Source: Alicyclobacillus sendaiensis NBRC 100866
Lineage (GTDB): Bacteria; Bacillota; Bacilli; Alicyclobacillales; Alicyclobacillaceae
DNA length: 44,506 bases
Assembly: GCF_001552675.1 (NCBI RefSeq)
Contig: NZ_BCRQ01000018.1
Location: forward strand, 1-44,506
Direction of reading: 5' to 3'
Shown: piece by piece, positions 3,409-15,456 of the stretch
Position numbering within the stretch: the first letter of the stretch is position 1
Layout of the letters: every line of letters begins with the position of its first letter
Position numbers and translations under genes: made by a program
Notes under the pieces: generated by a model
What the model was told of the DNA's origin: nothing
Seen by the model: only the letters and a program-made list of their open reading frames with translations
Database searches by the model: none

Positions 3409-3969
3409 GTGCTCTTGGGGAGCTCGCCGGCATTCGAGCAGTACATACCCTACATCTACAGGCTTGCTCAGCGCCTTGTTCGGTACCGCCGAAGTGCGAT
3501 GGTCGATGAGCAAGACTTGGTATCGGTCGCGATGAGCGCACTCTGGCAGCGCGGTCGTGAACAAGCGCTGGACGAGAAGTATGCTAAGCAAATCATCAAG
3601 TATGCCATGCTCACGCTGCTGAGAAATTCATCTCTGATGAAAATGCCTCGTTCCGTGCCCATGGCGCAGGCCATTGAGGCCTACCAGAAGGCGAAAAGCG
3701 CGGACGAGCTGGAGCGCGTGCCAGCAGGCAATCCCATTGAGCAGTGGGAGCAGGACGAGCTCGTGCGCGAGATTGTGTCGAAAATGGCCGAACTGCCGCG
3801 ACAAGACCAGATCTTGTTGTCGCTCGTCTTTGAACAGTCACTCAGCTTTCAGGATGTTGCGACGGTGCTCGGACTCACCAAGTCACAGGTGTACCACCGA
3901 TATCGGGCCATTCTGAAGGAGCTGCGTGCAAAGCTGGGGCTTTCCGCTGACAAGGAAATCTGGGCTTGA
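3409..3969 (+). CDS. short FliA/SigD-like sigma factor lacking region 3
   Basis: This 186-residue protein shows a sigma-70 region 2: helices around YIYRLAQRL and DEQDLVSVAMSALW, then a segment YAMLTLLRN...MPRSV that parallels the FliA motif GAM.DELR..DW.PRSV. It also shows a region 4 helix-turn-helix (LPRQDQILLSLVFEQSLSFQDVATVLGL). The linker between them is too short for a full region 3, whereas SigD/FliA is about 240-255 residues. The GTG start has a GAGGAG Shine-Dalgarno five bases upstream. It lies directly before flgM, the gene for the anti-sigma-28 factor, so an FlgM partner role is plausible. It could instead be a diverged sigma with its own target set. Bacillus usually has no sigma gene at this position. 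Confidence 0.72.
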   Translation: MLLGSSPAFEQYIPYIYRLAQRLVRYRRSAMVDEQDLVSVAMSALWQRGREQALDEKYAKQIIKYAMLTLLRNSSLMKMPRSVPMAQAIEAYQKAKSADELERVPAGNPIEQWEQDELVREIVSKMAELPRQDQILLSLVFEQSLSFQDVATVLGLTKSQVYHRYRAILKELRAKLGLSADKEIWA

Positions 3970-4590: not shown

Positions 4591-4608
4591 TGGATGAGGT
4601 GACGTGTG

Positions 4609-6072
4609 ATGGGGACGCCGACATTCTCCCCTCTGTACATAGGGTTGTCGGGACTTCAGGCGATGCAAGAGGCGGAAAGTGTGGTTGGCAACAACATCGA
4701 TAACGCCAACACGCCGGGCTACGCGCAGGAAAGCGTGAATTTGGTCGAAGGTCATCCGTATCCGCCGGTGCCTGGCGACGGCCCGATGATTGGAGGCCAA
4801 TACGGTCAAGGTGTGTCGGTGCAGTCCGTCACTCGTCAGGACAGCTGGTTCTATGACCGCCAGGACTGGCAGAACCAGAGTACCTATCAGATGTATTCAA
4901 CGTACAGTTCCATCCTCACGCAGGTCCAAGGCATTCTAAGCGAACCAAGCTCGAATGGGATTCAAAGCGCGCTCGACCAGTTCTTCAGCGCGTGGCAGAC
5001 GCTCTCCACGGATCCGTCGAATACGGCGGCGCGCCAGGCGGTGATCACCCAGGGGCAGGTATTGGCGCAGACCGCAAACACGGTGACGTCGCAACTCCAA
5101 ACTTTGCAATCGAATGTTCTGAGCCAAATTAATGATCAATTTCAGCAGCTGGAACAATATGCGCAAGAACTTTCCGCGGTGCAGGCACAAATTGCAGCGA
5201 TATCGCAGAGCAACGTGGGGGCGGGTGGGGCGTCATCGTCCGCTGTGGAAAACCCAAACGAGCTACTCGACCAGCAGGCTGCTATCATCGACGAAATGTC
5301 GCAGTTGGCAAACTTAACGCTATCGCAAAACCAGGATGGAACCATATCCGTCTCCATCGGGCCAGGCGGTTCTTCGGGCACGGTGATACCGCTTAACGCG
5401 TTGACTCAGGCGTCGGTGACGGAAGGCAGCAACGGCGTCCTCGTTCTGAGTGTGGGTTCCGGCTCCAATACACAGACGTACTTGCTTTCGTCCGTTGTCT
5501 CCGGTGGACAAATTGCGGGAAACGCCCAGGGTTTTACGGAACTCACAGGTCTCTTGAACAATTTGAATGCTTTCACGTCCCAACTTGCGACGCAAATTAA
5601 CTCCGCGCTGGGCGGACAGACGTTCTTTGACGCGAACCCGTTTGGCGTCGATGTCAAGATGACCAGCGCAACGCTCGCGCTCGGGCCGGGCGGTCCTCCC
5701 GGATCTTCCACGTATGTCGCGGGAGACAATACGTACGCCGTGAATGTCGTCAACCTGCAGACGCAGGCGCAGTCCATTACATGGATCGACGGCAGCGGCA
5801 ATTCGCAATCCGCGACGGGGACGTTCGATCAACTGCTCGCAAGCGCGGTGTCTCAAGTCGGCATGACGGCTTCCGGTGTGGCGGCGGGAGAAAAGACGGC
5901 AGACGCGCTTCTTCAACAGAGCTCCCAATTGCGGCAGTCGATTTCGGGGGTCTCCATTGACGAGCAGGCATCCTACATGATTGCGTTTCAAAATGCGTAC
6001 GCGGCTGCGGCCAAATATATCGCGACGTTTCAGACGATGTTGAACGCCTTGTTGAACATGGTTCAACCGTAA
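4609..6072 (+). CDS. flgK: flagellar hook-associated protein FlgK (HAP1)
   Basis: This 487-residue protein forms the first hook-filament junction zone outside the cell. The N-terminus has the rod/hook signature GLSGLQAMQEAESVVGNNIDNANTPGYAQ, and the C-terminus has the matching coiled coil (SGVSIDEQASYMIAFQNAYAAAAKYIATFQTMLNALL). The middle is rich in Ser, Thr, Gly and Gln. No signal peptide is present, as expected for type III flagellar export. ATG at 4609 is preferred over the GTG at 4606, because the AGGTGA Shine-Dalgarno at about 4596-4601 is then seven bases away. Length is normal. Confidence 0.93.
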   Translation: MGTPTFSPLYIGLSGLQAMQEAESVVGNNIDNANTPGYAQESVNLVEGHPYPPVPGDGPMIGGQYGQGVSVQSVTRQDSWFYDRQDWQNQSTYQMYSTYSSILTQVQGILSEPSSNGIQSALDQFFSAWQTLSTDPSNTAARQAVITQGQVLAQTANTVTSQLQTLQSNVLSQINDQFQQLEQYAQELSAVQAQIAAISQSNVGAGGASSSAVENPNELLDQQAAIIDEMSQLANLTLSQNQDGTISVSIGPGGSSGTVIPLNALTQASVTEGSNGVLVLSVGSGSNTQTYLLSSVVSGGQIAGNAQGFTELTGLLNNLNAFTSQLATQINSALGGQTFFDANPFGVDVKMTSATLALGPGGPPGSSTYVAGDNTYAVNVVNLQTQAQSITWIDGSGNSQSATGTFDQLLASAVSQVGMTASGVAAGEKTADALLQQSSQLRQSISGVSIDEQASYMIAFQNAYAAAAKYIATFQTMLNALLNMVQP

Positions 6073-6090
6073 GCGGCGGAGGTGACGAAG

Positions 6091-7059
6091 GTGCGGATTA
6101 CAACGGCGATGGAGCAGCAGCAGTTCCTGTACAACCTTGAGAACATCAACACTGCGATGCAGAACGTGCAGGAGCAGCTGTCCACCGGCAAGGTCCTCAA
6201 CCTCCCGCAGGACGATCCCGTCGCGGTGTCCAAGGACATGGATTTGGCAAGCGAGATGTCGCAGATCTCTGCGAATCTGTCGACGATTTCTTCCGGCCTT
6301 TCCTGGATGAACGCGACGCAGTCCGCGATGCAAGGGATGGTGACCCAACTTCAGCAGATTCAATCCAACTTGGTGGCTGCGATGAACACATCCAATCAGA
6401 GCAGCGCGGGACTCCAGGGCTATGCGGACACCATCGCGCAGCTCATTCAGGGTGTGTACCAGATTGCCGACCAGACCGTCGGCAGCCGCTACTTGTTCGG
6501 AGGTCAAGCGGACAACGTGGCACCTACCACGTACCTCAAAACGTCCCCCAACGGGACCCCGCAGGTGATTCCGCCGGGCGCCGGGCCGCATTCGACGCCT
6601 TACAATCCGTTTGACGACGCCAACGCGAGTCCGCCAAACGTGAACGAGATCATCGGGAATCAGGTTTCCATTCGCGTAACCGTCACTGCTTACGACATCT
6701 TCCTCACGTCGCCTGGCGGTGGCCCAAACTTGCAGGATACGCTGAACGACATTCAAACCGACCTGCAAAGCGGGAACACGGCCGGTCTGAAGCAGGACCT
6801 GACGAACCTCCAGGCCAACTTGAATCAGGTTATTAACCTGAACGCGGCGCTCGGGGCGCGCATTCAGCGCATGACCGCTGCGCAAAACCAGTTGACCCAA
6901 TATCAGACCAATCTCAGCAACTTGAAAGGGGGGATTGAAGGGGCGGATATGGCCCAGGTCATGACGCAGTTCTCCACAGATCAGGTGATCTACGAGGCTG
7001 CGCTGCAGATGGGCGCTCAGATTCTGCTCCCCACATTGGTGAGCTATCTGCCGAGTTGA
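6091..7059 (+). CDS. flgL: flagellar hook-associated protein FlgL (HAP3)
   Basis: This 322-residue junction protein sits between FlgK and the filament. The N-terminus MRITTAMEQQQFLYNLENI and the segment LSTGKVLNLPQDDPVAVSKDM are typical of flagellin-like FlgL, and the C-terminal helix (EGADMAQVMTQFSTDQVIYEAALQ) is the matching D0/D1 half. A longer frame begins at GTG 6082, but that codon overlaps the GGAGG at 6078-6082. GTG 6091 lies eight bases past the Shine-Dalgarno and gives the standard MRIT start. In Bacillus, yviE, fliW and csrA follow flgL; here flagellin follows directly. Confidence 0.92.
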   Translation: MRITTAMEQQQFLYNLENINTAMQNVQEQLSTGKVLNLPQDDPVAVSKDMDLASEMSQISANLSTISSGLSWMNATQSAMQGMVTQLQQIQSNLVAAMNTSNQSSAGLQGYADTIAQLIQGVYQIADQTVGSRYLFGGQADNVAPTTYLKTSPNGTPQVIPPGAGPHSTPYNPFDDANASPPNVNEIIGNQVSIRVTVTAYDIFLTSPGGGPNLQDTLNDIQTDLQSGNTAGLKQDLTNLQANLNQVINLNAALGARIQRMTAAQNQLTQYQTNLSNLKGGIEGADMAQVMTQFSTDQVIYEAALQMGAQILLPTLVSYLPS

Positions 7060-7166: not shown

Positions 7167-8021
7167 ATGTCCCTCAATTTCAGTGTAAACAACAATGCGT
7201 CCGCCGCAAGCATTCTTTCGAACCTGCAGTACGTCAACAACGAAATCAACACATCGTATCAGCAACTGTCGACTGGCAACCGAATCAACAGTGCCGCTGA
7301 CGATCCGGCGGGATACGCGATTGCACAGCAGATGACCGCTCAGGTGAACGCGCTCAACCAGGCCATTCAAAACGCGCAAAACGGCATCAGCATGTTGCAG
7401 ACCGCATCCGGCGCCATGAACCAAGTCACCTCGATTCTGCAGACCATGAACACGCTCGCCGTCGAGGCGGCCAACGGCACGGAGAATTCGACTGACCTGA
7501 GCAACCTGGATCAGGAATTCATCGCCCTGCAGAACCAGATCAACAACATCGCGAGCCAGACGAAGTTCAACACCATGACGCTGCTCGATGGTTCGTTTGC
7601 AAGCAGTGGTGTCGTATTCCAGATCAACACCGACAGCACGACCAACTCCCAGCTCACCGTGACCATCGCCGCGGTCAGCATCGGGGCGCTCTTCAGTTCG
7701 GCTGTTCTGTCCGGAGGATATCTGCACATCACATCGCAGACGCTCGCGCAGCAGGCAATTTCCGTTGTCCAGGCGGCCATCACGAGCCTGTCGGCGTACC
7801 AGGCCCAGGTGGGCGCCGTGGAAGATCAGCTGAACTACACCGTCTCGAACCTGCAGAACACTGCCGACAACCTGCAGAATGCCGAGTCGACCATCACTAA
7901 CACAGACATGGCGAAGGCCTATACTGAATTCAGCCAGCAGCAGGTTCTGCAACAAGTCGGCTTGGCGATGCTGGCGCAAGCAGACCAGCAGCCTGATGCC
8001 ATCCTGAAGCTGTTGCAATAA
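7167..8021 (+). CDS. hag: flagellin (filament subunit)
   Basis: This 284-residue flagellin is of minimal size. The N-terminal D0/D1 half has the conserved LSTGNRINSAADDPAGYAIA and the long coiled segment through LLDG (about residue 137). The C-terminal half ends AMLAQADQQPDAILKLLQ, close to the usual MLAQANQ.P...LLQ ending. Between them, only about 45 residues rich in Ser and Thr (SFASSGVV..STTNSQLTV) replace the surface D2/D3 domains. These exposed residues are candidate O-glycosylation sites, given the glycosyltransferases downstream. The ATG has a very strong GGAGGAGGA Shine-Dalgarno at 7152-7160. A terminator follows, so it may be transcribed on its own as well as from upstream. Confidence 0.95.
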   Translation: MSLNFSVNNNASAASILSNLQYVNNEINTSYQQLSTGNRINSAADDPAGYAIAQQMTAQVNALNQAIQNAQNGISMLQTASGAMNQVTSILQTMNTLAVEAANGTENSTDLSNLDQEFIALQNQINNIASQTKFNTMTLLDGSFASSGVVFQINTDSTTNSQLTVTIAAVSIGALFSSAVLSGGYLHITSQTLAQQAISVVQAAITSLSAYQAQVGAVEDQLNYTVSNLQNTADNLQNAESTITNTDMAKAYTEFSQQQVLQQVGLAMLAQADQQPDAILKLLQ

Positions 8022-8036
8022 CCCGCCCGATTTTTG

Positions 8037-8065
8037 AGCCCCGGCCGGCTTGGCTGGGGCTTTCT
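8037..8065 (+). terminator. intrinsic terminator after flagellin
   Basis: AGCCCCGGCC (8037-8046) pairs with GGCTGGGGCT (8052-8061), with one G-U pair and the loop GGCTT, and is followed by TTCTC. It separates the high-output flagellin gene from fliD. The T tract is short, so partial read-through is likely. Confidence 0.65.
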
Positions 8066-8082
8066 CAAAGGAGGAGCCCACT

Positions 8083-9612
8083 GTGTCGGTGAACTCCACA
8101 AGCATGTCGACCAATTTGCAGACGGCCGCCAGCCTGCTGCAGCAACTGAATACGGTCTCCAACCCATCTGGCACCGGGCTGCCTGTTAGCCAGTACGTTC
8201 AGGATCTGCAAACGATTCTTCAACAGGAACTCGAAAAGCCCATTCAAAATCAAATCTCCTCGCTCTCGTCCCAACAGTCCGCGCTGACGTCCCTTCAGTC
8301 GGCGCTTCAGGCGTTTCAACAAGCGACCGAAACGCTCGCCAGCCTCCAGAGCTGGAGCACGGTGCAGGCGTCGAGCAGCGACTCGAGCGTGCTTTCCGTA
8401 ACGGCCTCCGCGGGTGCGAGCATTGGCACCTATCAAATAAGTGTCACTCAGTTAGCTTCCGCGCAGACGACGTTTCAAAATTCTGCGCTTCAAACAAGTG
8501 CCACCGGGGCTTCCACGTTGGCGAGTGGAACCCTTGTAATCACGCCGAAGACACTGAATCAAGGGCAATCGGTTTCAATCAACATTGTCCAGAATGAATC
8601 GTTACAAAGCATTGCCAATGCCATCAACCAATACACGAGTCAGACGGGCGTGGCCGCTGCCGTTCTCTCAACAGGGCAGTCGTACTTCCTGGCCCTTTCA
8701 TCGGTGCAGACGGGAGCCGCGTACGGGTTTACCGTCACGGAGACGAATGTCGGCTCCTCCGGAGACGCGCTAACGTTCCAGACCGATACCCAGGCTCAAG
8801 ATGCCCAAATCTCCGTCGGCGGTCAGACGCTCTCGTCTCCCACCAACACGTTTGCCAATTATATTCCCGGCCTGACGCTCCAGGTGAATTCAACAGGCAC
8901 GGCGACTGTCACCGTGTCACAGGATACGAGCGGGGCGCTGAAGGCGGTTCAGACGTGGATGAGCGCATACAACACGCTCATTGACACCATCAGGCAGGAC
9001 ACCGCCTATACGCCGGGGGCCGGTACGAGCTCTGGGCAGGCTGGCCCCCTCTTCGGGGACCCGCTCGCACAGGAGCTCTTGCAGGAAATTCCGGCGGCCG
9101 TCTCGAGCGTCGTCAGTAACGCCACATCGCCGTACAATTCGCTCGCGTCCATTGGCATCGTCCTCGACCCATCGACCGGTCACCTCGAATTCCAGTCCGC
9201 TTCGGGGTTCAGCTCTGCGTCGGGAACGCTGCCGGATGGGCAAAGCATCTTCCAGAACGCACTGACCTCGAGCCTCTCGAACGTGGAGCAGCTGTTCGGC
9301 GTCGTCAACACCACAGCGTCGCAGGCTGTTCCAACGTCCGGCGTGCTCGGGAACCTTTATAACTTCTTGAGCACGATGCTCGTGGGGAATCCGAACGGCA
9401 CAGGGCAGTCGCCCATTCAGGCGGAAATCAACGCGCTTGGTGACGAAAAGACGTCGCTTCAGAATTATCTCAACCTGGTCGATCAGCAGATTCAATATCG
9501 GGTGCAGCAGTACACCGATCAATTGAACCGGCTCAATGCGGTCATGCAGCAGGCACAGGCGCAGATGCAGCAATTGTCCGCGATGTTCAAGACGTCCTCG
9601 TCCAATGGCTAA
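8083..9612 (+). CDS. fliD: flagellar filament cap protein FliD (HAP2)
   Basis: This 509-residue cap protein folds flagellin at the tip of the growing filament. It has the FliD_N region (SQYVQDLQTILQQELEKPIQ and following coiled coil, about 30-110), a flagellin-IN/middle region (about 115-230) and the FliD_C region ending in a long coiled coil (VDQQIQYRVQQYTDQLNRLNAVMQQ). The GTG start at 8083 has a GGAGGAG Shine-Dalgarno at 8070-8076. The product is exported by the flagellar type III system and so has no signal peptide. It is the usual neighbour of fliS/fliT, here replaced by a FliT-like gene and the FliS fusion. Confidence 0.9.
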   Translation: MSVNSTSMSTNLQTAASLLQQLNTVSNPSGTGLPVSQYVQDLQTILQQELEKPIQNQISSLSSQQSALTSLQSALQAFQQATETLASLQSWSTVQASSSDSSVLSVTASAGASIGTYQISVTQLASAQTTFQNSALQTSATGASTLASGTLVITPKTLNQGQSVSINIVQNESLQSIANAINQYTSQTGVAAAVLSTGQSYFLALSSVQTGAAYGFTVTETNVGSSGDALTFQTDTQAQDAQISVGGQTLSSPTNTFANYIPGLTLQVNSTGTATVTVSQDTSGALKAVQTWMSAYNTLIDTIRQDTAYTPGAGTSSGQAGPLFGDPLAQELLQEIPAAVSSVVSNATSPYNSLASIGIVLDPSTGHLEFQSASGFSSASGTLPDGQSIFQNALTSSLSNVEQLFGVVNTTASQAVPTSGVLGNLYNFLSTMLVGNPNGTGQSPIQAEINALGDEKTSLQNYLNLVDQQIQYRVQQYTDQLNRLNAVMQQAQAQMQQLSAMFKTSSSNG

Positions 9613-9625
9613 GCGAGGTGAGCGC

Positions 9626-10012
9626 ATGCCTCTCCACGACGCTCTGCAGGCGGGTTGCCGCGAAATCGAAAAGGCCTGGCACTTGGGCCACGAGGTCTTG
9701 TCGCTTCTTGCGTCGAACTGGTTGCATGAGGCCGTGGCTATCATGCAGCACCGGGCCGAGGTGCTCGCCGTTTGCTTGGACGGGCATCGAGGCGTCTCCG
9801 AGGCGTGGATGTTTCGGCTCATGGCCCAGACGGAAGCGATTCGCATCGCGGCGGAGGAAAAACACAGGTCCTTGACCGAGGAGCGCGACCGGGTTTTGGC
9901 GGCTTGGCCGGTCATCCGCGCCTACGAGGCCAGTCAGGCGCGCGCAGCGACATCATCGAATGGAAAGGCGGATTCGCGTGTTGCTTTCCGCATGTCTCAT
10001 CGTCAAAAATGA
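9626..10012 (+). CDS. small helical protein, FliT-like chaperone candidate
   Basis: This 128-residue helical cytoplasmic protein lies directly after fliD. The stretch LLASNWLHEAVAIMQHRAEVLAVCL resembles the FliT pattern of a tryptophan-led helix followed by an R..L...L helix. FliT proteins chaperone FliD and normally follow fliS. I do not recognise it with certainty: the length fits, but sequence support is thin. The C-terminal 25 residues are basic and low in complexity. The ATG at 9626 has GAGGTGA at 9615-9621. Its end overlaps the next gene by 35 bases, so the two are coupled. Confidence 0.5.
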   Translation: MPLHDALQAGCREIEKAWHLGHEVLSLLASNWLHEAVAIMQHRAEVLAVCLDGHRGVSEAWMFRLMAQTEAIRIAAEEKHRSLTEERDRVLAAWPVIRAYEASQARAATSSNGKADSRVAFRMSHRQK

Positions 10013-12242
10013 AGCGCATGTCATCGAGCGATGTCTGAAGTCGCTTGAGGGAGTGGCGGACGAGATTATCGTCGTGGACACCGGTTCCACGGATGATACG
10101 CCGCGCATCGCGGCCGCGTTTGGTGCACGTGTTTACCAAGCGCCCTGGACGGGAGACTTCGGAGAGGCCAGGAACCGGTCGCTCCAGCACGCGCAGGGCG
10201 ACTATGTGCTCGTCATTGACGCCGACGAATTTCTTCCCCAAGAGGATGGCAAGCGGCTGCGGCGCGCCATCGAAGCCGGCGAAGCGGACGCTTATACGGT
10301 CGATCTCGTCAATTATGTCGGTTCCGTCGCTCGCTTCGTGCGCGCTCCGGGCGTGCGAGTTGTGCGCGTGTTCCGGCGAGGCTTTACCTATCAGGGGACG
10401 ATTCACGAACAGATATTGCCGCAAATTGCGGCGCGGGGCGGCCGCGTCCAGGTGCTCGATGTGGAGTTGCACCATCTCGGCTATCTCGCAGAATTTGTTG
10501 CCATGAAGGGAAAGCCGGATCGAAATCTTTCCATACTCAAGCAGGTGCTGGATCAGGATCCCGAAAACCTGTTTCATCTCACCAACCTCATGGCTGAATA
10601 CGCCAGGATCAATCAGCCTGAGCGCGTCATCGAGGTGGGAGAACGGGCTTATGCCATCGCGGCGTCGCACGTCGTGACGGAACCGCACCTCGTCCTGCGG
10701 CTCTACCGCATGCTCGCTGCGGCCTACGGCGATATCGGCGATTCGAACCGCCTCGAGCGTCTCGCGTCGGAAGGCGAACAACTCTTTCCGTCCATCCCTG
10801 ACCTGCCTTTTATCCATGGCGTGTATGAGATGAAGCAAGGCAGGTGGCACAAGGCCATCCGTTTATTTGAGCGATGCCTCGAGATTGGCCCCGTGCGGTC
10901 CGAGATTGTAGATACCATCGCAGGCGCGGGTTCGTTCGTCGCGGCCGCGAAGCTTGGGGAACTTTGGCTGCTCGAAGGCGATGTGGAACGCGCGCGCGAC
11001 TACTTTGTGCAGAGCCTGCGCGCGAATCCCCGCCAGGAGGGTGTGTTCTTCTTTCTGGCATCGCTCTTGCCGCTCGGGGAGCCGCCCGTGTGGTCCCAAC
11101 TCTGGCGCGCCGCCGAGCATGACCCGGTCTGCCTTGCGTACCTCGCCATCGCTGGCGCGATGTGGCGTCAGGACTGGGTCTGGTCCGCGCTGAACGAAAT
11201 CGATCACACGCCCGTGACGTCTCCGATTCTCACCAAGCTCGGGGCATCTGGTGTGGCATTGGGGAAGTTGGAACCATCTTACTTCCCAGACGAGCCCGCT
11301 GCAAAGCTAGAGCAGCGCTGGTTTGAGGCCCTGTTGGCGATCAACCGGAGGGAAGGAGATCTGGCGCGGTCCCTTTTGCAAGATCAGCCTGAACGACTCG
11401 CACAACTTGAACCGTGGCTATCCGGCGGGACCCCATTGCACATCGGGCCGCTCCTTGATGAGCTTCTGCTTGTCCGCGCTCATCGGTTGCTTTTGCAGTC
11501 TCTCCCCCAGGCGGCGGATCGCGACGAGGTGCTATCGCGTGTGCTCGCCTCGCCGCTCCGCGACATGCTCCATCACGTCGCATGGAGAGGGGAGCGGGGC
11601 TGGGAGTGTGACTTTCTCGCCACAGCCGCATTTCACCGCCGCGACATCGCCACGAGCCTCGAATGGCTTGAGCGCGGCTTGGCGTACGAACCCACGGTTC
11701 GCCGCGCAGTGATGGAGATCGACCTTGCCCTCGCACATCGAAACGTTGATCACGCGAGCACGGTCGTTCGACAGGCCAGGGCCTGGTTTCCGTCATCAGA
11801 CATTCTGCGGCACATCGAGGAGCGCCTGCATGTGACGGAGCGCCAAGCGCGTTCCTTGGATGAACTGCTCGAGGAGGGAACGACCATGCACCCACACCGG
11901 GCCTATCAAATGTCCGTGGCGACCATGCCGCTCAAAGTGAAGATTGTGAAACTGCACGAGCGCGCTGTCGAGTGCGTGGATCAGGTGATGGAGCTTGTGA
12001 AGCAGGGGGACATCATGGGAGCGCGCACGTACATCCAATATGTGCAGGACATCATCACGTTCCTGCGCAGCAATCTCGACGTGTCCACCGAGGCGGGGAA
12101 GGCTGCCAATGCATCTTACGGCTATTTCTATAAAATGCTCGTTGGCTGGTTTCTCCAGCCTGCGCGGGTGGCAGAGGAATACCAAGAGATGCGGCAGTTC
12201 TGGCAGTCCTGGGCCGACACGTGGGCCAAGGTGCAGGCCTGA
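9978..12242 (+). CDS. family-2 glycosyltransferase - helical repeat - FliS chaperone fusion
   Basis: This 754-residue three-part protein starts with a GT-A glycosyltransferase (about 1-230): CLIVKNEAHVIERCL, VDTGSTDDT, and the metal/nucleotide-sugar motif D81-A-D83 in IDADEF. TPR-like helical repeats fill about 185-620. Residues 637-754 match the whole FliS flagellin chaperone: AYQMSVAT..P near the start, AR.YIQYVQDIITFLRSNLD mid-way, YGYFYKMLV, and the closing FW..WADTWAK. FliS wraps the disordered flagellin C-terminus before export, so the fusion would bring a glycosyltransferase to unfolded flagellin in the cytoplasm. An ATG at 9960 is possible, but it has no Shine-Dalgarno; GTG 9978 has AAAGGCGG upstream. 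No separate fliS exists in the window. Confidence 0.85.
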   Translation: MLLSACLIVKNEAHVIERCLKSLEGVADEIIVVDTGSTDDTPRIAAAFGARVYQAPWTGDFGEARNRSLQHAQGDYVLVIDADEFLPQEDGKRLRRAIEAGEADAYTVDLVNYVGSVARFVRAPGVRVVRVFRRGFTYQGTIHEQILPQIAARGGRVQVLDVELHHLGYLAEFVAMKGKPDRNLSILKQVLDQDPENLFHLTNLMAEYARINQPERVIEVGERAYAIAASHVVTEPHLVLRLYRMLAAAYGDIGDSNRLERLASEGEQLFPSIPDLPFIHGVYEMKQGRWHKAIRLFERCLEIGPVRSEIVDTIAGAGSFVAAAKLGELWLLEGDVERARDYFVQSLRANPRQEGVFFFLASLLPLGEPPVWSQLWRAAEHDPVCLAYLAIAGAMWRQDWVWSALNEIDHTPVTSPILTKLGASGVALGKLEPSYFPDEPAAKLEQRWFEALLAINRREGDLARSLLQDQPERLAQLEPWLSGGTPLHIGPLLDELLLVRAHRLLLQSLPQAADRDEVLSRVLASPLRDMLHHVAWRGERGWECDFLATAAFHRRDIATSLEWLERGLAYEPTVRRAVMEIDLALAHRNVDHASTVVRQARAWFPSSDILRHIEERLHVTERQARSLDELLEEGTTMHPHRAYQMSVATMPLKVKIVKLHERAVECVDQVMELVKQGDIMGARTYIQYVQDIITFLRSNLDVSTEAGKAANASYGYFYKMLVGWFLQPARVAEEYQEMRQFWQSWADTWAKVQA
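11871..11888 (+). promoter_or_regulatory. internal ribosome-binding site and ATG at the FliS domain border
   Basis: GAGGAGGG at 11871-11878, then seven bases, then an in-frame ATG at 11886, inside the fusion gene. The ATG falls exactly where a free FliS would begin (next residues HPHRAYQ). This would allow separate translation of a stand-alone FliS from the same frame. The Shine-Dalgarno encodes Glu-Glu-Gly, so chance cannot be excluded. Confidence 0.6.
11886..12242 (+). CDS. fliS: putative internally initiated stand-alone FliS (same frame as the fusion)
   Basis: Initiation at the internal ATG would give a 118-residue protein with the length and complete pattern of FliS (usually about 120-135 residues). 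FliS binds the C-terminal helix region of flagellin, prevents premature polymerisation and hands flagellin to the export gate. The likely flagellin-binding helices are the segments around VKLHERAVECVDQVMEL and YIQYVQDIITFLRSNL. The separate product is inferred only from the Shine-Dalgarno and start position. It is nested in, and shares its stop with, the fusion gene, so it may be the ancestral fliS whose upstream neighbour lost its stop codon. Confidence 0.5.
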   Translation: MHPHRAYQMSVATMPLKVKIVKLHERAVECVDQVMELVKQGDIMGARTYIQYVQDIITFLRSNLDVSTEAGKAANASYGYFYKMLVGWFLQPARVAEEYQEMRQFWQSWADTWAKVQA

Positions 12243-12256
12243 ACGCTGTTCAGGCC
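12236..12256. terminator. bidirectional hairpin between converging genes
   Basis: GGCCTGAAC (12236-12244) and GTTCAGGCC (12248-12256) form a perfect 9-bp stem with a three-base loop, spanning the stop codons of the fusion gene and of the methyltransferase on the other strand. T tracts are weak on both sides. Confidence 0.6.
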
Positions 12257-13104
12257 GGCTTCTTCGCGATCACGGCGATCTCCGCGTGCATAGAAAATTG
12301 TGGCTCTCCGGGTTCTTGCTCTAAGCGTCTCGCGAGCGCGTCATACGACGCTTGGCTGATGATGCCGGTCTCGATGAGCGCACCGCGGCGTTCCTGCAGT
12401 TGTTCGAGGAGCGTTAGACGAGCAAGGCGACTAGGTGTTTCTGCATAGTGCGCTTGAGGCACCACAAACGTCTGGACCACAGAGAAGCCAACGTCTGCGA
12501 GCAGACTGGCGAGTTTCCTCCCCATGTGTCTGTCGCCTCCGTTGGTTTGCTGTAGTCTGCTCAGGGCGTCCCTGACCTCGGCGGCAACGGGATCGACGGG
12601 ATATTCGAGGCTCAGTGCGTCGTCGGCGTCTATCAGGCACGCGAAGCCACCCGGCTTTAAAACGCGGGCGATCTCCCGAACAGCTGAAGACGGATTCGTG
12701 AGGTGCTGGAATAAGAAGCGCGAAACGGCGACATCGGCATGGCTGTCCGGCAGCGGTAGCGCCTCTGCGTCGCCCGTTTGCCACTCGATGGTGCATCCCG
12801 AGATTATTGCGCCCGCGTTCTGGAGGTCTTGTTCCATGCGCTTTGCCACGGTGAGCGCCGCGGAAGAACGGTCGATGCCTACCAGTTGCACGTCATAAAG
12901 CGCCGCGATGTCGAAGGTGAGGGCACCGAATCCACATCCGATGTCAAGGACACGCATCCCCGCGCGGACGGGCAGCGCGCGGAGGACGGCTCGGCGTATG
13001 GCTGCCGTGGCGAGCGCTTGGTGAATAAGCCATCGGTTGGGGACATCTTCCCGCGAAACATACGTCTTCATGACGTCATCAATGACTTGGAAGGCTTGGT
13101 CCAT
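12250..13104 (-). CDS. class I SAM-dependent methyltransferase
   Basis: This 284-residue methyltransferase has motif I VLDIGCGFGALT (about 52-63), the acidic end of strand two (VGID), GDAEALPLPD typical of the UbiE/Methyltransf_11 group, and RVLKPGGF after strand four. The acceptor cannot be read from sequence. Its location beside flagellin glycosyltransferases suggests O-methylation of a flagellin sugar, but this is inference. It runs opposite to its neighbours, converging on the FliS fusion. A TTG at 13107 directly precedes the ATG. The nearest Shine-Dalgarno-like GGGGAG is 12-15 bases away, so the exact start is uncertain. Confidence 0.75.
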   Translation of the reverse strand: MDQAFQVIDDVMKTYVSREDVPNRWLIHQALATAAIRRAVLRALPVRAGMRVLDIGCGFGALTFDIAALYDVQLVGIDRSSAALTVAKRMEQDLQNAGAIISGCTIEWQTGDAEALPLPDSHADVAVSRFLFQHLTNPSSAVREIARVLKPGGFACLIDADDALSLEYPVDPVAAEVRDALSRLQQTNGGDRHMGRKLASLLADVGFSVVQTFVVPQAHYAETPSRLARLTLLEQLQERRGALIETGIISQASYDALARRLEQEPGEPQFSMHAEIAVIAKKPA

Positions 13105-13264
13105 CAACTTCGTTCAACGCTCCCCGTCAGCTGGAGTGAGATGGCCGTCCGACTTGTGCGCCGTTTTTTCGGCTGCACTTCGTCGAACTACTGGCCTTCA
13201 TTGAGTGTAGCATGTGCATGGCGCGCGGGGGCGCCTGTGTGACGATTTGAGCGGAGGAATACGT

Positions 13265-14338
13265 ATGCGATGGTTCTTTGTTTTAGAACACCTCGGGGGA
13301 CAGGGCGGCGTGGAGTCCGTCCTCACCACGGTGAGCACGTACCTTCGCGACAAGGGCCACGAGGTCGTGCTGTTAATGCCCCATCCCAGTGACAATCCGG
13401 CCTGGGAGGTTCCACTTTGCACGGTGTACTACGCGATGTCCGCACCTCCGCCGAGGTCTGCGCTGGACCACGTCGCCACCCGTATCCTTGGCCTGTGCCA
13501 CACGGCAAGCCTTCTGCCGCAGCCGGATGTGGTGGTCGCGACGCACGTGCCGCAAACCGCGCTCTACGCCAGGATGGCCTTTGGCCATTTGCGCGGCGTC
13601 CCCGTGGTGTCCTGGCTCCACGCTCCGCTACACCTCTTCGCCGAGCCCCATCTGGTCCAATACGCGGATCTTCACTGGTGTATTTCGTCGGGGATTGCGT
13701 CATCTATCGCGGAGCTCGTCGGTGGGGCGGCGCATGTTCACTGGATTGGAAATCCGGTGCGAATCGACGTGTCAAGGGTTCCCGCGCCCACGGGGAAGCC
13801 ACGCTTTCTCTACATGGGACGACTCGAAAATGGTCAGAAGCGCTTGGATGTGCTGCTCCACGGCCTAAGCCAACTCGACGAGGACTGGCACCTCGACGTC
13901 TACGGGGACGGACCCGATCGTGGATTGGTCAAGGACTGGGCGGAAAGCCTCGGCATCGACGGACGGATCACATGGCATGGCTACGTGCCGTCTCCGTGGG
14001 AGAGAGTGAGCGAGGCATCCGCACTCCTGCTCACGTCGGATATCGAAGGTTTCGGCATGGTGCTCGCGGAGGCACTGGCTCGCGGTGTTCCCGTTGTTGC
14101 GGCGGATTGTCCCACCGGCCCGCGCGATCTCGTCGAGGACGGCGCAAACGGTTATTTGTTTCGAAGTGGCGACTCCCTCGACTTGTGCCGAAAGTTGTCG
14201 CTGTTACTCTCGCGGTCCGACGCCGAGCGTGAACGCATGGCCGAGATCGCCGTCCAGAGCGTACAGAAATTTTCCGTCGATCGCGTCGTGGGGCGGATGC
14301 TGGCTTCGCTTTCAGCGTGCCTAAAGGTCGGGAGGTGA
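13265..14338 (+). CDS. GT4-family glycosyltransferase (first of tandem pair)
   Basis: This 357-residue GT-B enzyme begins FVLEHLGGQGGVESVLTT, the N-terminal donor/acceptor loop of Glycos_transf_4. It has the C-terminal Glyco_trans_1 domain with YMGRLENGQKRLD, GDGPDRG, and the nucleotide-sugar-binding EGFGMVLAEALARGVPVV. Two consecutive basic residues after the sugar-phosphate strand and the EX7E motif fit a retaining transferase. ATG 13265 has GGAGG at 13253-13257. It lacks membrane segments and is probably cytoplasmic. It is about 40% alike, by eye, to the gene that follows. A lipopolysaccharide-type role is unlikely in this organism; flagellin or wall glycan are the alternatives. Confidence 0.82.
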   Translation: MRWFFVLEHLGGQGGVESVLTTVSTYLRDKGHEVVLLMPHPSDNPAWEVPLCTVYYAMSAPPPRSALDHVATRILGLCHTASLLPQPDVVVATHVPQTALYARMAFGHLRGVPVVSWLHAPLHLFAEPHLVQYADLHWCISSGIASSIAELVGGAAHVHWIGNPVRIDVSRVPAPTGKPRFLYMGRLENGQKRLDVLLHGLSQLDEDWHLDVYGDGPDRGLVKDWAESLGIDGRITWHGYVPSPWERVSEASALLLTSDIEGFGMVLAEALARGVPVVAADCPTGPRDLVEDGANGYLFRSGDSLDLCRKLSLLLSRSDAERERMAEIAVQSVQKFSVDRVVGRMLASLSACLKVGR

Positions 14339-14343
14339 GTGCG

Positions 14344-15456
14344 TTGGTCATCGATATTGTGCTCGGTCGCGCGCTCGGCCGCGGTGGTTTGGAGTCCGTG
14401 CTCACGACTGTCAGCCAGGCGCTGCAGCAGAGGGGCCATCGCGTCAGGATGTTTCAATTTGAACCTCCACAGCACCCGGAGTGGGTGTCCACCTTGCCCG
14501 AGATGCACTTTTACGATCCCATCGCAGCTGGTCAGGAACGAACTTTTCCAGGTGAGGTTCCCATCTTTCGCCAAGCACTGGGCTATCGCAGGAAGATACT
14601 CGAGCTCGGCCCGCCCGACGTCTTGCTCGCGACCCATACGCCTTATTTGTCGCTCCTTGCACACCTGGCCGTTGCCGTGTTTGGCGAGCGGAGACCGCCT
14701 ATCATCTCGTGGCTTCATGGACCCGCGGAGGCATACGGCGGAGGAGAGCTCCTCGCGTATGCGGATGGGCACCTCGCGATCTCAAAGGGCGTCGAGGCGT
14801 CCCTTCGCCGGTACGTGTCCGACGGTGCACCTGTGTTTTCCATTGGGAATCCGGTGACTCGGGAAGGGGTACGACAGGTCGCGCGCCCGAAGGATCGGTG
14901 GGAGCTCTTGTTTATCGGCAGAATCGACAACCCCCACAAGCGGCTCGATGTGATGTTGGAAGCTCTCGCCCAAACGGAGATGAATTTTCGTTTAACGATT
15001 ATCGGAGACGGACCGGACCGGCAGGCGATTGAAAGGCTGATTCACGAGCTTGGCCTGGTTAGCCGGTTGCAATGGCTGGGATGGATGGATGATCCGTGGT
15101 CGTGCGTCACCGAAGCTTCACTCCTGCTCTTAACTTCGGATGTCGAGGGTTTCGGCATGGTGCTCGTGGAGGCGCTGGCACGGGGTATCCCTGTCGTCGC
15201 GACGCGCTGTTCAGGTCCTGTGGAAATCGTCCAGGATGGATACAACGGTTGGCTGTTCGACCCCGGACGGTCAGATGAATTGGCGGCGCTTCTGGACCGG
15301 CTCGCGTGCGGTGATCTCCAGTTGCCAGCACAGGTGGTGTGCGTTCATTCTGTGGAGCGTTATCGGACGGACGCAGTGATCGACCGTCTTGAGCAAGCGC
15401 TCTACGCGGTGCGCGCTCTGTACCAACCCAAGGCGTTTCCGCCCTTCCTACGCTAG
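14344..15456 (+). CDS. GT4-family glycosyltransferase (second of tandem pair)
   Basis: This 370-residue paralogue of the previous gene has IVLGRALGRGGLESVLTT at the start, FIGRIDNPHKRLD, GDGPDRQ, and EGFGMVLVEALARGIPVVATRC near the C-terminal nucleotide-sugar site. Starting at the TTG 14344 places a GGAGG at 14331-14335 eight bases upstream and aligns the N-terminus residue for residue with the first copy. Longer starts overlap the Shine-Dalgarno. It begins six bases after the preceding stop, so the two are one transcription unit. Substrate is unknown. The pair probably adds successive sugars of one glycan. Confidence 0.8.
   Translation: MVIDIVLGRALGRGGLESVLTTVSQALQQRGHRVRMFQFEPPQHPEWVSTLPEMHFYDPIAAGQERTFPGEVPIFRQALGYRRKILELGPPDVLLATHTPYLSLLAHLAVAVFGERRPPIISWLHGPAEAYGGGELLAYADGHLAISKGVEASLRRYVSDGAPVFSIGNPVTREGVRQVARPKDRWELLFIGRIDNPHKRLDVMLEALAQTEMNFRLTIIGDGPDRQAIERLIHELGLVSRLQWLGWMDDPWSCVTEASLLLLTSDVEGFGMVLVEALARGIPVVATRCSGPVEIVQDGYNGWLFDPGRSDELAALLDRLACGDLQLPAQVVCVHSVERYRTDAVIDRLEQALYAVRALYQPKAFPPFLR

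Follow-up and report, generated by a model that had tools for sequence, protein, structure and literature searches.

A conserved fusion of a GT2 glycosyltransferase with a divergent FliS domain in Alicyclobacillus, and a probable internal start for free FliS

GmaR of Listeria, FlmG of Caulobacter, and the Maf glycosyltransferases are precedents for parts of the design of the gene described here, which joins a GT2 glycosyltransferase (GT), an array of tetratricopeptide repeat (TPR)-like helices, and the flagellin chaperone FliS in one frame at positions 9978 to 12242 of contig NZ_BCRQ01000018.1 from Alicyclobacillus sendaiensis NBRC 100866 (the window: the whole stretch of 44,506 nucleotides that was analysed). 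As described in the parts of the cited papers available to us, GmaR is a flagellin N-acetylglucosamine transferase and at the same time the antirepressor of MogR, with 637 residues arranged as GT, TPR, linker, and antirepressor (PMC9638930). FlmG carries a TPR flagellin-binding domain, which gives the specificity, together with the transferase, and it is present before the chaperone FlaF, a separate protein that appears later (PMC7591256). Maf enzymes glycosylate flagellin in the cytoplasm before export, and in Aeromonas caviae the flagellin is handed to a separate chaperone (PMC4065374); a weak resemblance of the Maf C-terminal domain to FliS has also been noted (PMC11339370).

In B. subtilis, filament formation and swarming fail when FliS lacks its first 18 residues or when both Y7 and Y10 are changed, and residues 1-18, these tyrosines included, form no part of the interface with flagellin and are considered to act in the recognition of FlhA (PMC6070490). 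A role in docking to FlhA is likewise given for Tyr-10 of Salmonella FliS (PMC8527033). For SctQ/YscQ, an internal translation start and a short C-terminal product have been shown by experiment (PMC4295842). In the part of the work on Geobacillus flagellin glycosylation islands that was available, FliS is mentioned only as a separate gene (PMC5109656). A reading made earlier from the letters of the window without database searches (the sequence-only reading) knew of no described enzyme of the present design; no description of a FliS-glycosyltransferase fusion was found in the full-text literature searched, most subscription papers being outside its scope, although FlmG and Maf, as far as the excerpts go, are partial precedents.

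The fusion gene is a single frame of 754 amino acids without an internal stop, as had been read from the sequence (Table 1). GTG 9978 is to be preferred to ATG 9960 as the start because the start residue is common to relatives (12 of 19 fused relatives start at the identical residue) and because this alignment column holds start codons only (ATG, GTG, and TTG in 10, 4, and 6 of the 20 fused genes, respectively). The proposed GT2 catalytic domain and long helical repeats are both upheld: a PF00535 match is accompanied by a DxD motif, and TPR models of Pfam match about residues 281-352, within a longer TPR-like array. All 37 aligned proteins share D81, D83, E84, H143-E144-Q145, and H166 without variation, the residues from H143 onward lying beyond the PF00535 match, and H165 is added to these in the 20 fused proteins. 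We take D81/D83 to be the catalytic DxD of GT2. The closest PDB sequence to the GT domain is GmaR 22ao_A (E 3.6e-32), followed by the ThuS and SunS transferases. The gene follows fliD, the usual place of fliS, with a gap of 365 bp and the order flgK-flgL-flagellin-fliD-fusion, as the sequence-only reading had it.

That reading had also claimed every landmark of FliS at the C-terminus. The complete domain is confirmed by PF02561, which scores 39.0 bits (cut-off 26.7) over profile positions 3-114 of 115 and 43.0 bits in the genome search; the full set of landmarks is not, KLHERA standing where ordinary FliS rows have MLYDG or MLFDG. All 20 fused proteins agree in Y643, P651, W724, W742, W745, and W749 of their FliS domain; Y643 is the N-terminal tyrosine, its equivalence to Tyr10 resting on alignment position. 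The closest PDB sequences to the C-terminus are FliS 1ory/1orj (E about 5e-5), and an AlphaFold model of the region (127 residues, alignment of 40) has five helices in a FliS-type helical bundle with a predicted local distance difference test (pLDDT) score of 85.4. All of the best 16 PDB chains in Foldseek are FliS or flagellar chaperones: ten are titled FliS (alone, in complex, or as a FliC/FliS fusion), five belong to 1ory/1orj (titled flagellar export chaperone, and named FliS among the PDB sequence matches), and one is titled flagellar chaperone. The top chain, B. subtilis FliS with flagellin (5maw_E), gives a template modelling (TM) score of 0.85 by target length and a root-mean-square deviation (rmsd) of 1.9, and is the only one of the 16 at E <= 0.001; H. 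pylori 3iqc_B gives a TM score of 0.92. A chance resemblance to FliS is ruled out, as profile, predicted fold, and relatives concur. In the full-length model (pLDDT 89.6, predicted TM score 0.87), the linker stretch at residues 634-644 has a pLDDT below 50. The Foldseek list of this model is headed by SunS/ThuS transferases, with GmaR 7x9r at rank 9 (TM 0.55 by target length, rmsd 10.2), and FliS entries are missing from its best 50 rows because the GT and TPR parts fill the list.

The fusion of GT and FliS is natural and conserved, to judge from its distribution. A search for the same fusion elsewhere, which the sequence-only reading had suggested, covered 59 genomes of the order, the present one included, with FliS matches taken at E 0.001. 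FliS occurs in 50 of them, exactly once in each: in 20 it is fused, as the sole FliS, within a frame of 756-819 amino acids, and in 30 it is free. Fused copies score 25.8-47.0 bits (G055 falls below the Pfam cut-off), whereas 19 of the free ones score 108.9 bits or more and the other 11 score 30.8-95.8. In five others of the 59 genomes (G008, G020, G026, G027, and G028) a GT-TPR gene and a FliS gene overlap by exactly 4 nucleotides. The genes flgK, flgL, flagellin, and fliD lie upstream of the fusion in 19 of the 20 fused loci, the remaining stretch (G055) being too short, and fliD is also upstream in the fused locus L127. Fusions were seen in Alicyclobacillus mali, sacchari, tengchongensis, hesperidum, montanus, and sp. 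SP_1 and in Ferroacidibacillus organovorans, and split forms in A. fastidiosus and Sulfoacidibacillus thermotolerans, among the matches listed. A scan of contigs gave at least 79 loci, at least 13 of them fused, at least two split, and at least 64 without FliS in the GT frame.

An assembly error is ruled out by the 19 other genomes, among them the single-contig relative G009, whose protein is 99% identical and whose FliS is likewise the fused copy only. A separate fliS gene elsewhere in the present genome is also ruled out: the fused copy is the sole FliS above the cut-off, and the other match (C63) reaches just 13.5 bits (E 0.157). A scan of the class took in 398 genomes. One of the phylum, also of 398 genomes, had a match in 295, and no further fusion was among the matches listed. 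Both list only the best matches, and a weakly scoring fusion outside the order could therefore have escaped notice. A 498-amino-acid frame in G483 was rejected as a further fusion, since it holds a 178-amino-acid FliS adjoining fliD within a longer open frame. In 12 loci of viral contigs no FliS was found by profile at E 0.001, and matches were confined to query residues 1-386. Three split genomes (L078, L079, and L081) have two GT-TPR genes on either side of one free FliS gene, and five fused genomes (L062, L063, L066, L067, and L069) have a second GT2 gene of 367-391 amino acids directly after the fusion. In L082 (G037), the GT-TPR region lies in two overlapping frames, possibly through a frameshift or a sequencing error, and the adjoining free FliS is very divergent and was missed by Pfam at E 0.001.

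The second main feature of the gene is a start signal at the junction between the linker and FliS. The codon just before the FliS N-terminus is ATG in 15, GTG in four, and TTG in one of the 20 fused genes; alignment column 722, with no search pattern used, gives a start codon in 20 of 20, whereas for the energy comparison the codon of G056 was assigned by hand. Eight alignment columns hold at least eight ATG, and just two vary solely among ATG, GTG, and TTG, namely the gene start and the junction, which is also the position of the FliS gene start in the five overlapping pairs. The duplex energy of the junction Shine-Dalgarno (SD) sequence with the anti-SD ranges from -8.4 to -15.2 kcal/mol (median -11.8), compared with a median of -2.7 kcal/mol for 1053 other in-frame ATG, GTG, and TTG codons of the same genes, gene ends left out; three of the 1053 are as strong as the junction of the gene in which they lie. 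The difference is significant (Mann-Whitney p 1.6e-14), with related genes counted as independent. For scale, the median is -10.1 at the GT start (18 of the 20 genes, G013 and G014 being unmatched by the pattern) and -9.7 for free FliS (14 genes, first start of the frame; -0.4 to -13.2). Values for flaA (-12.1, 23 genes), fliD (-12.8, 25), and flgL (-13.4, 21) are biased towards strength because the strongest start within 25 codons was used. The fused gene L121, outside the test set, also has a junction ATG, with an energy of -14.8, the strongest of 51, so that a conserved internal start codon and SD of the SctQ type are found in all 20 genes and in L121. The genome has a single sequence of the usual 16S 3'-end type that includes CACCTCC. 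When the eight codons before the junction were recoded synonymously, 18 of 20 genes had a weaker mean; Fisher's combined p over 14 rows was 2e-5, and 7 of the 20 genes were singly below 0.05.

The fused genes thus appear to retain the start of FliS, for which the evidence from sequence is strong. The FliS part has its own in-frame ribosome-binding site and start at 11871-11888, and on the simplest view two proteins are probably made from the gene, the long GT-TPR-FliS and a free FliS of 118 amino acids. The sequence-only reading had stated that no free fliS is present and that the chaperone is tethered to the transferase. There is indeed no separate gene, and the two parts are fused in 20 genomes; the internal start predicts a free FliS nonetheless, and its conservation suggests that the chaperone is probably not solely tethered.

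Most fused relatives (17 of 19) are just 30-51% identical to the protein of the window. Of the seven relatives in the same genus, six keep FliS better than GT, and all seven keep it at least as well as the array (FliS 82%, GT 76%, and array 60% in L052; 68, 55, and 34% in L053). Outside the genus, the array (22-28%) is less well kept than FliS in the 12 fused relatives. The spacer from the invariant S607 to the junction is poorly kept and has eight lengths, 21-34 residues, in the 20 fused genes. In the GT tree the fused rows lie on one side of a branch with a support of 87, and in the joined-parts tree they do so with 65/90; one fused/free change suffices in each. The FliS-only tree (131 columns) places the 20 fused FliS together with seven free ones, of which the overlapping pairs contribute five, in one clade (100/99) apart from ordinary FliS.

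The sequence-only reading proposed that flagellin is glycosylated before export, with FliS recruiting the client, and this fits the GT2 motifs, the FliS fold, the conserved pairing of GT and FliS (fused in 20 genomes and overlapping neighbours in five more), and the flagellin-fliD locus. We lean, with modest confidence, towards a fuller account in which one gene gives two products with divided labour. The long product would be a cytoplasmic flagellin glycosyltransferase, whose FliS domain, on its flexible linker, would clamp the C-terminal region of new flagellin and hold the exposed part close to the active site of GT2. Translation from the internal ribosome-binding site would give the short product, a free FliS that brings flagellin to FlhA for export by docking with its N-terminus, where the conserved tyrosine lies; the long form would dock poorly because its FliS N-terminus is tethered to the linker. 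On this account both proteins would be made, flagellin would be glycosylated, and its recruitment to the long form would be through the FliS domain. FlhA is present in the genome. FliW (PF02623) has no match there at E 0.001, and the FliS/flagellin/FliW loop of B. subtilis may therefore be absent here, although FlhA is present. More tentatively, and in our view somewhat short of an even prospect, a single gene could balance the decorating and the exporting of flagellin: with the FliS N-terminus tethered and unable to dock, flagellin would have to pass from the long to the short form, and glycosylation would thereby become a checkpoint that precedes export.

Several observations weigh against this two-product account. 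Against TIGR00208, the NCBIfam FliS equivalog (cut-off 53.75), the whole protein scores 19.1 bits and its FliS part, taken by itself, 23.7. Both values are under the cut-off, so that by the profiles the C-terminus is a FliS-fold domain that belongs to the Pfam family but is divergent and falls outside the NCBIfam equivalog. Beyond the genus, GT (44-54%) is kept better than FliS (38-46%) in each of the 12 fused relatives, and the FliS-only tree needs four fused/free changes, which may reflect several fusions or splits. In 9 of 20 genes the recoding p exceeds 0.1, which means that the amino acids of the linker account for part of the SD strength. The internal site may be left over from a pair of overlapping genes, and both forms might export. 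Furthermore, the transferase of Aeromonas caviae acts ahead of the chaperone and does not need it (PMC4065374, in the part available), and recruitment through FliS is no general rule because glycosylation there precedes chaperone binding and is independent of it.

If only the long fusion were made, its FliS domain would present flagellin to the GT and then escort it to FlhA. The frame left uninterrupted in 20 genomes despite eight spacer lengths, the one FliS per genome, and the docking tyrosine retained in the fusion are in keeping with such a single product, which we nevertheless consider unlikely: the junction start codon and SD are kept in 20 of 20 genes at a strength within the range of true starts, and FliS docks to FlhA via an N-terminus (PMC6070490, as excerpted) that is not free in the fusion. 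The fusion may also be a by-product of an overlapping pair, with GT-TPR and FliS mattering separately and the shared frame functionless. Five relatives with a 4-nucleotide overlap are near the fused state, the internal start looks as good as a normal one, and the FliS-only tree has its four changes of state; set against these are a frame that is open through a poorly kept spacer in 20 genomes, with most relatives as distant as described above, and the single change needed by the GT and joined trees. The open frame is not a clean test because the genes were selected as being in frame, and we hold this explanation to be improbable as well. Lastly, the part after the GT might control flagellar transcription, as in GmaR, with FliS sensing the state of export. 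The sequence match of the GT domain to GmaR 22ao_A and the structural match to 7x9r are what speak for this moonlighting; the fold match of the array is loose, and the MogR DNA-binding family (PF12181) is unmatched in the genome at E <= 1, by which antirepression of MogR is rejected and any role of this type becomes very improbable. The two-product account remains the one that we favour.

Table 1. Positions of the fusion gene, its predicted parts, and the upstream flagellar genes in the window
Feature	Position	Strand	Details
flgK	4606..6072	+	TIGR02492, 259.9 bits
flgL	6082..7059	+	TIGR02550, 156.5 bits
Flagellin, 284 amino acids, presumed client	7167..8021	+	C-terminal region complete, PF00700 2-86 of 86
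fliD, upstream neighbour	8050..9612	+	Pfam and NCBIfam profiles
SD-like sequence of long product, AAAGGCGGA	9964..9972	+	Duplex energy -11.7
Long product, GT2 glycosyltransferase, TPR-like array, linker, FliS, 754 amino acids	9978..12242	+	
GT2 domain, residues 4-126	9987..10355	+	PF00535, 84.2 bits (cut-off 23.3)
TPR-like helical array, residues about 171-617	10488..11828	+	TPR profiles and predicted fold
Linker, array to FliS	11829..11885	+	pLDDT <50 at residues 634-644; length differs among genomes
Internal SD, GAGGAGGG	11871..11878	+	Purine-rich, 7 nucleotides before internal ATG
Nested in-frame FliS frame, ATG 11886, 118 amino acids, predicted short product	11886..12242	+	
FliS domain, residues 642-752 of long product	11901..12233	+	PF02561, Pfam profile

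Other genes lie on both sides of these features. Right after the fusion gene, on the opposite strand, is a class I methyltransferase (12250-13107), which may act in sugar modification or have an unrelated role. Farther downstream, on the forward strand, are tandem GT4 glycosyltransferases (13214-14338 and 14317-15456), the frames of which overlap by 22 nucleotides and which are possible extenders of a flagellin glycan; L068 has a GT4 pair near its fusion too, but on the opposite strand. Upstream of flgK, a short sigma-factor-like protein (3409-3969, forward strand) is above the cut-off of the broad TIGR02937 model and, at 60.2 bits, under that of TIGR02479 (FliA/WhiG).

The fusion bears on how flagellin glycosyltransferases select flagellin in such bacteria, and on whether they act before or after the export chaperone. 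A natural fusion, with split relatives and a built-in start for the free chaperone, would allow effects on glycosylation to be told apart from effects on export, and an enzyme that is led to its client protein by a chaperone domain is a possible design for targeted glycosylation. If the checkpoint proposal were true, an export chaperone would serve as the substrate-recruiting domain of a transferase, forming a glycosylation station.

Compared with known systems, as far as the excerpts describe them, the fusion shares an N-terminal GT with GmaR, the sequence match there being strong, and may share the succession of TPR, linker, and helical region behind it, over which the fold match is loose; the length of GmaR is close to that of fusion residues 1-636; however, none of the four domains of GmaR is FliS, and its partner MogR was not found here in the search for PF12181. 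FlmG likewise has flagellin-binding and transferase domains in one protein, but its binding domain is an N-terminal TPR, not an export chaperone, and its order (N-terminal TPR, C-terminal GT) is reversed in the fusion, where GT occupies residues 4-126 and FliS 642-752. With Maf the fusion shares glycosylation of flagellin before export, as proposed here, and a C-terminal domain that in Maf is said to be weakly FliS-like; the chaperone of the Maf system is separate from the transferase, and the matches at E 0.01, 11 in Pfam and 14 in NCBIfam, include no Maf family. The FliS part agrees with ordinary FliS (B. subtilis 5maw, A. aeolicus 1ory, and others) in fold, N-terminal tyrosine, and place after fliD, and differs in being joined to a glycosyltransferase, in its divergent sequence, and in a start nested within a longer gene. 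Like SctQ/YscQ, the gene would give two in-frame products in the context of type III export, although SctQ/YscQ is neither a chaperone nor a glycosylation gene. Overall, the fusion belongs among the modular flagellin glycosyltransferases, in which, if the functional model holds, FliS would be the module that brings in the client.

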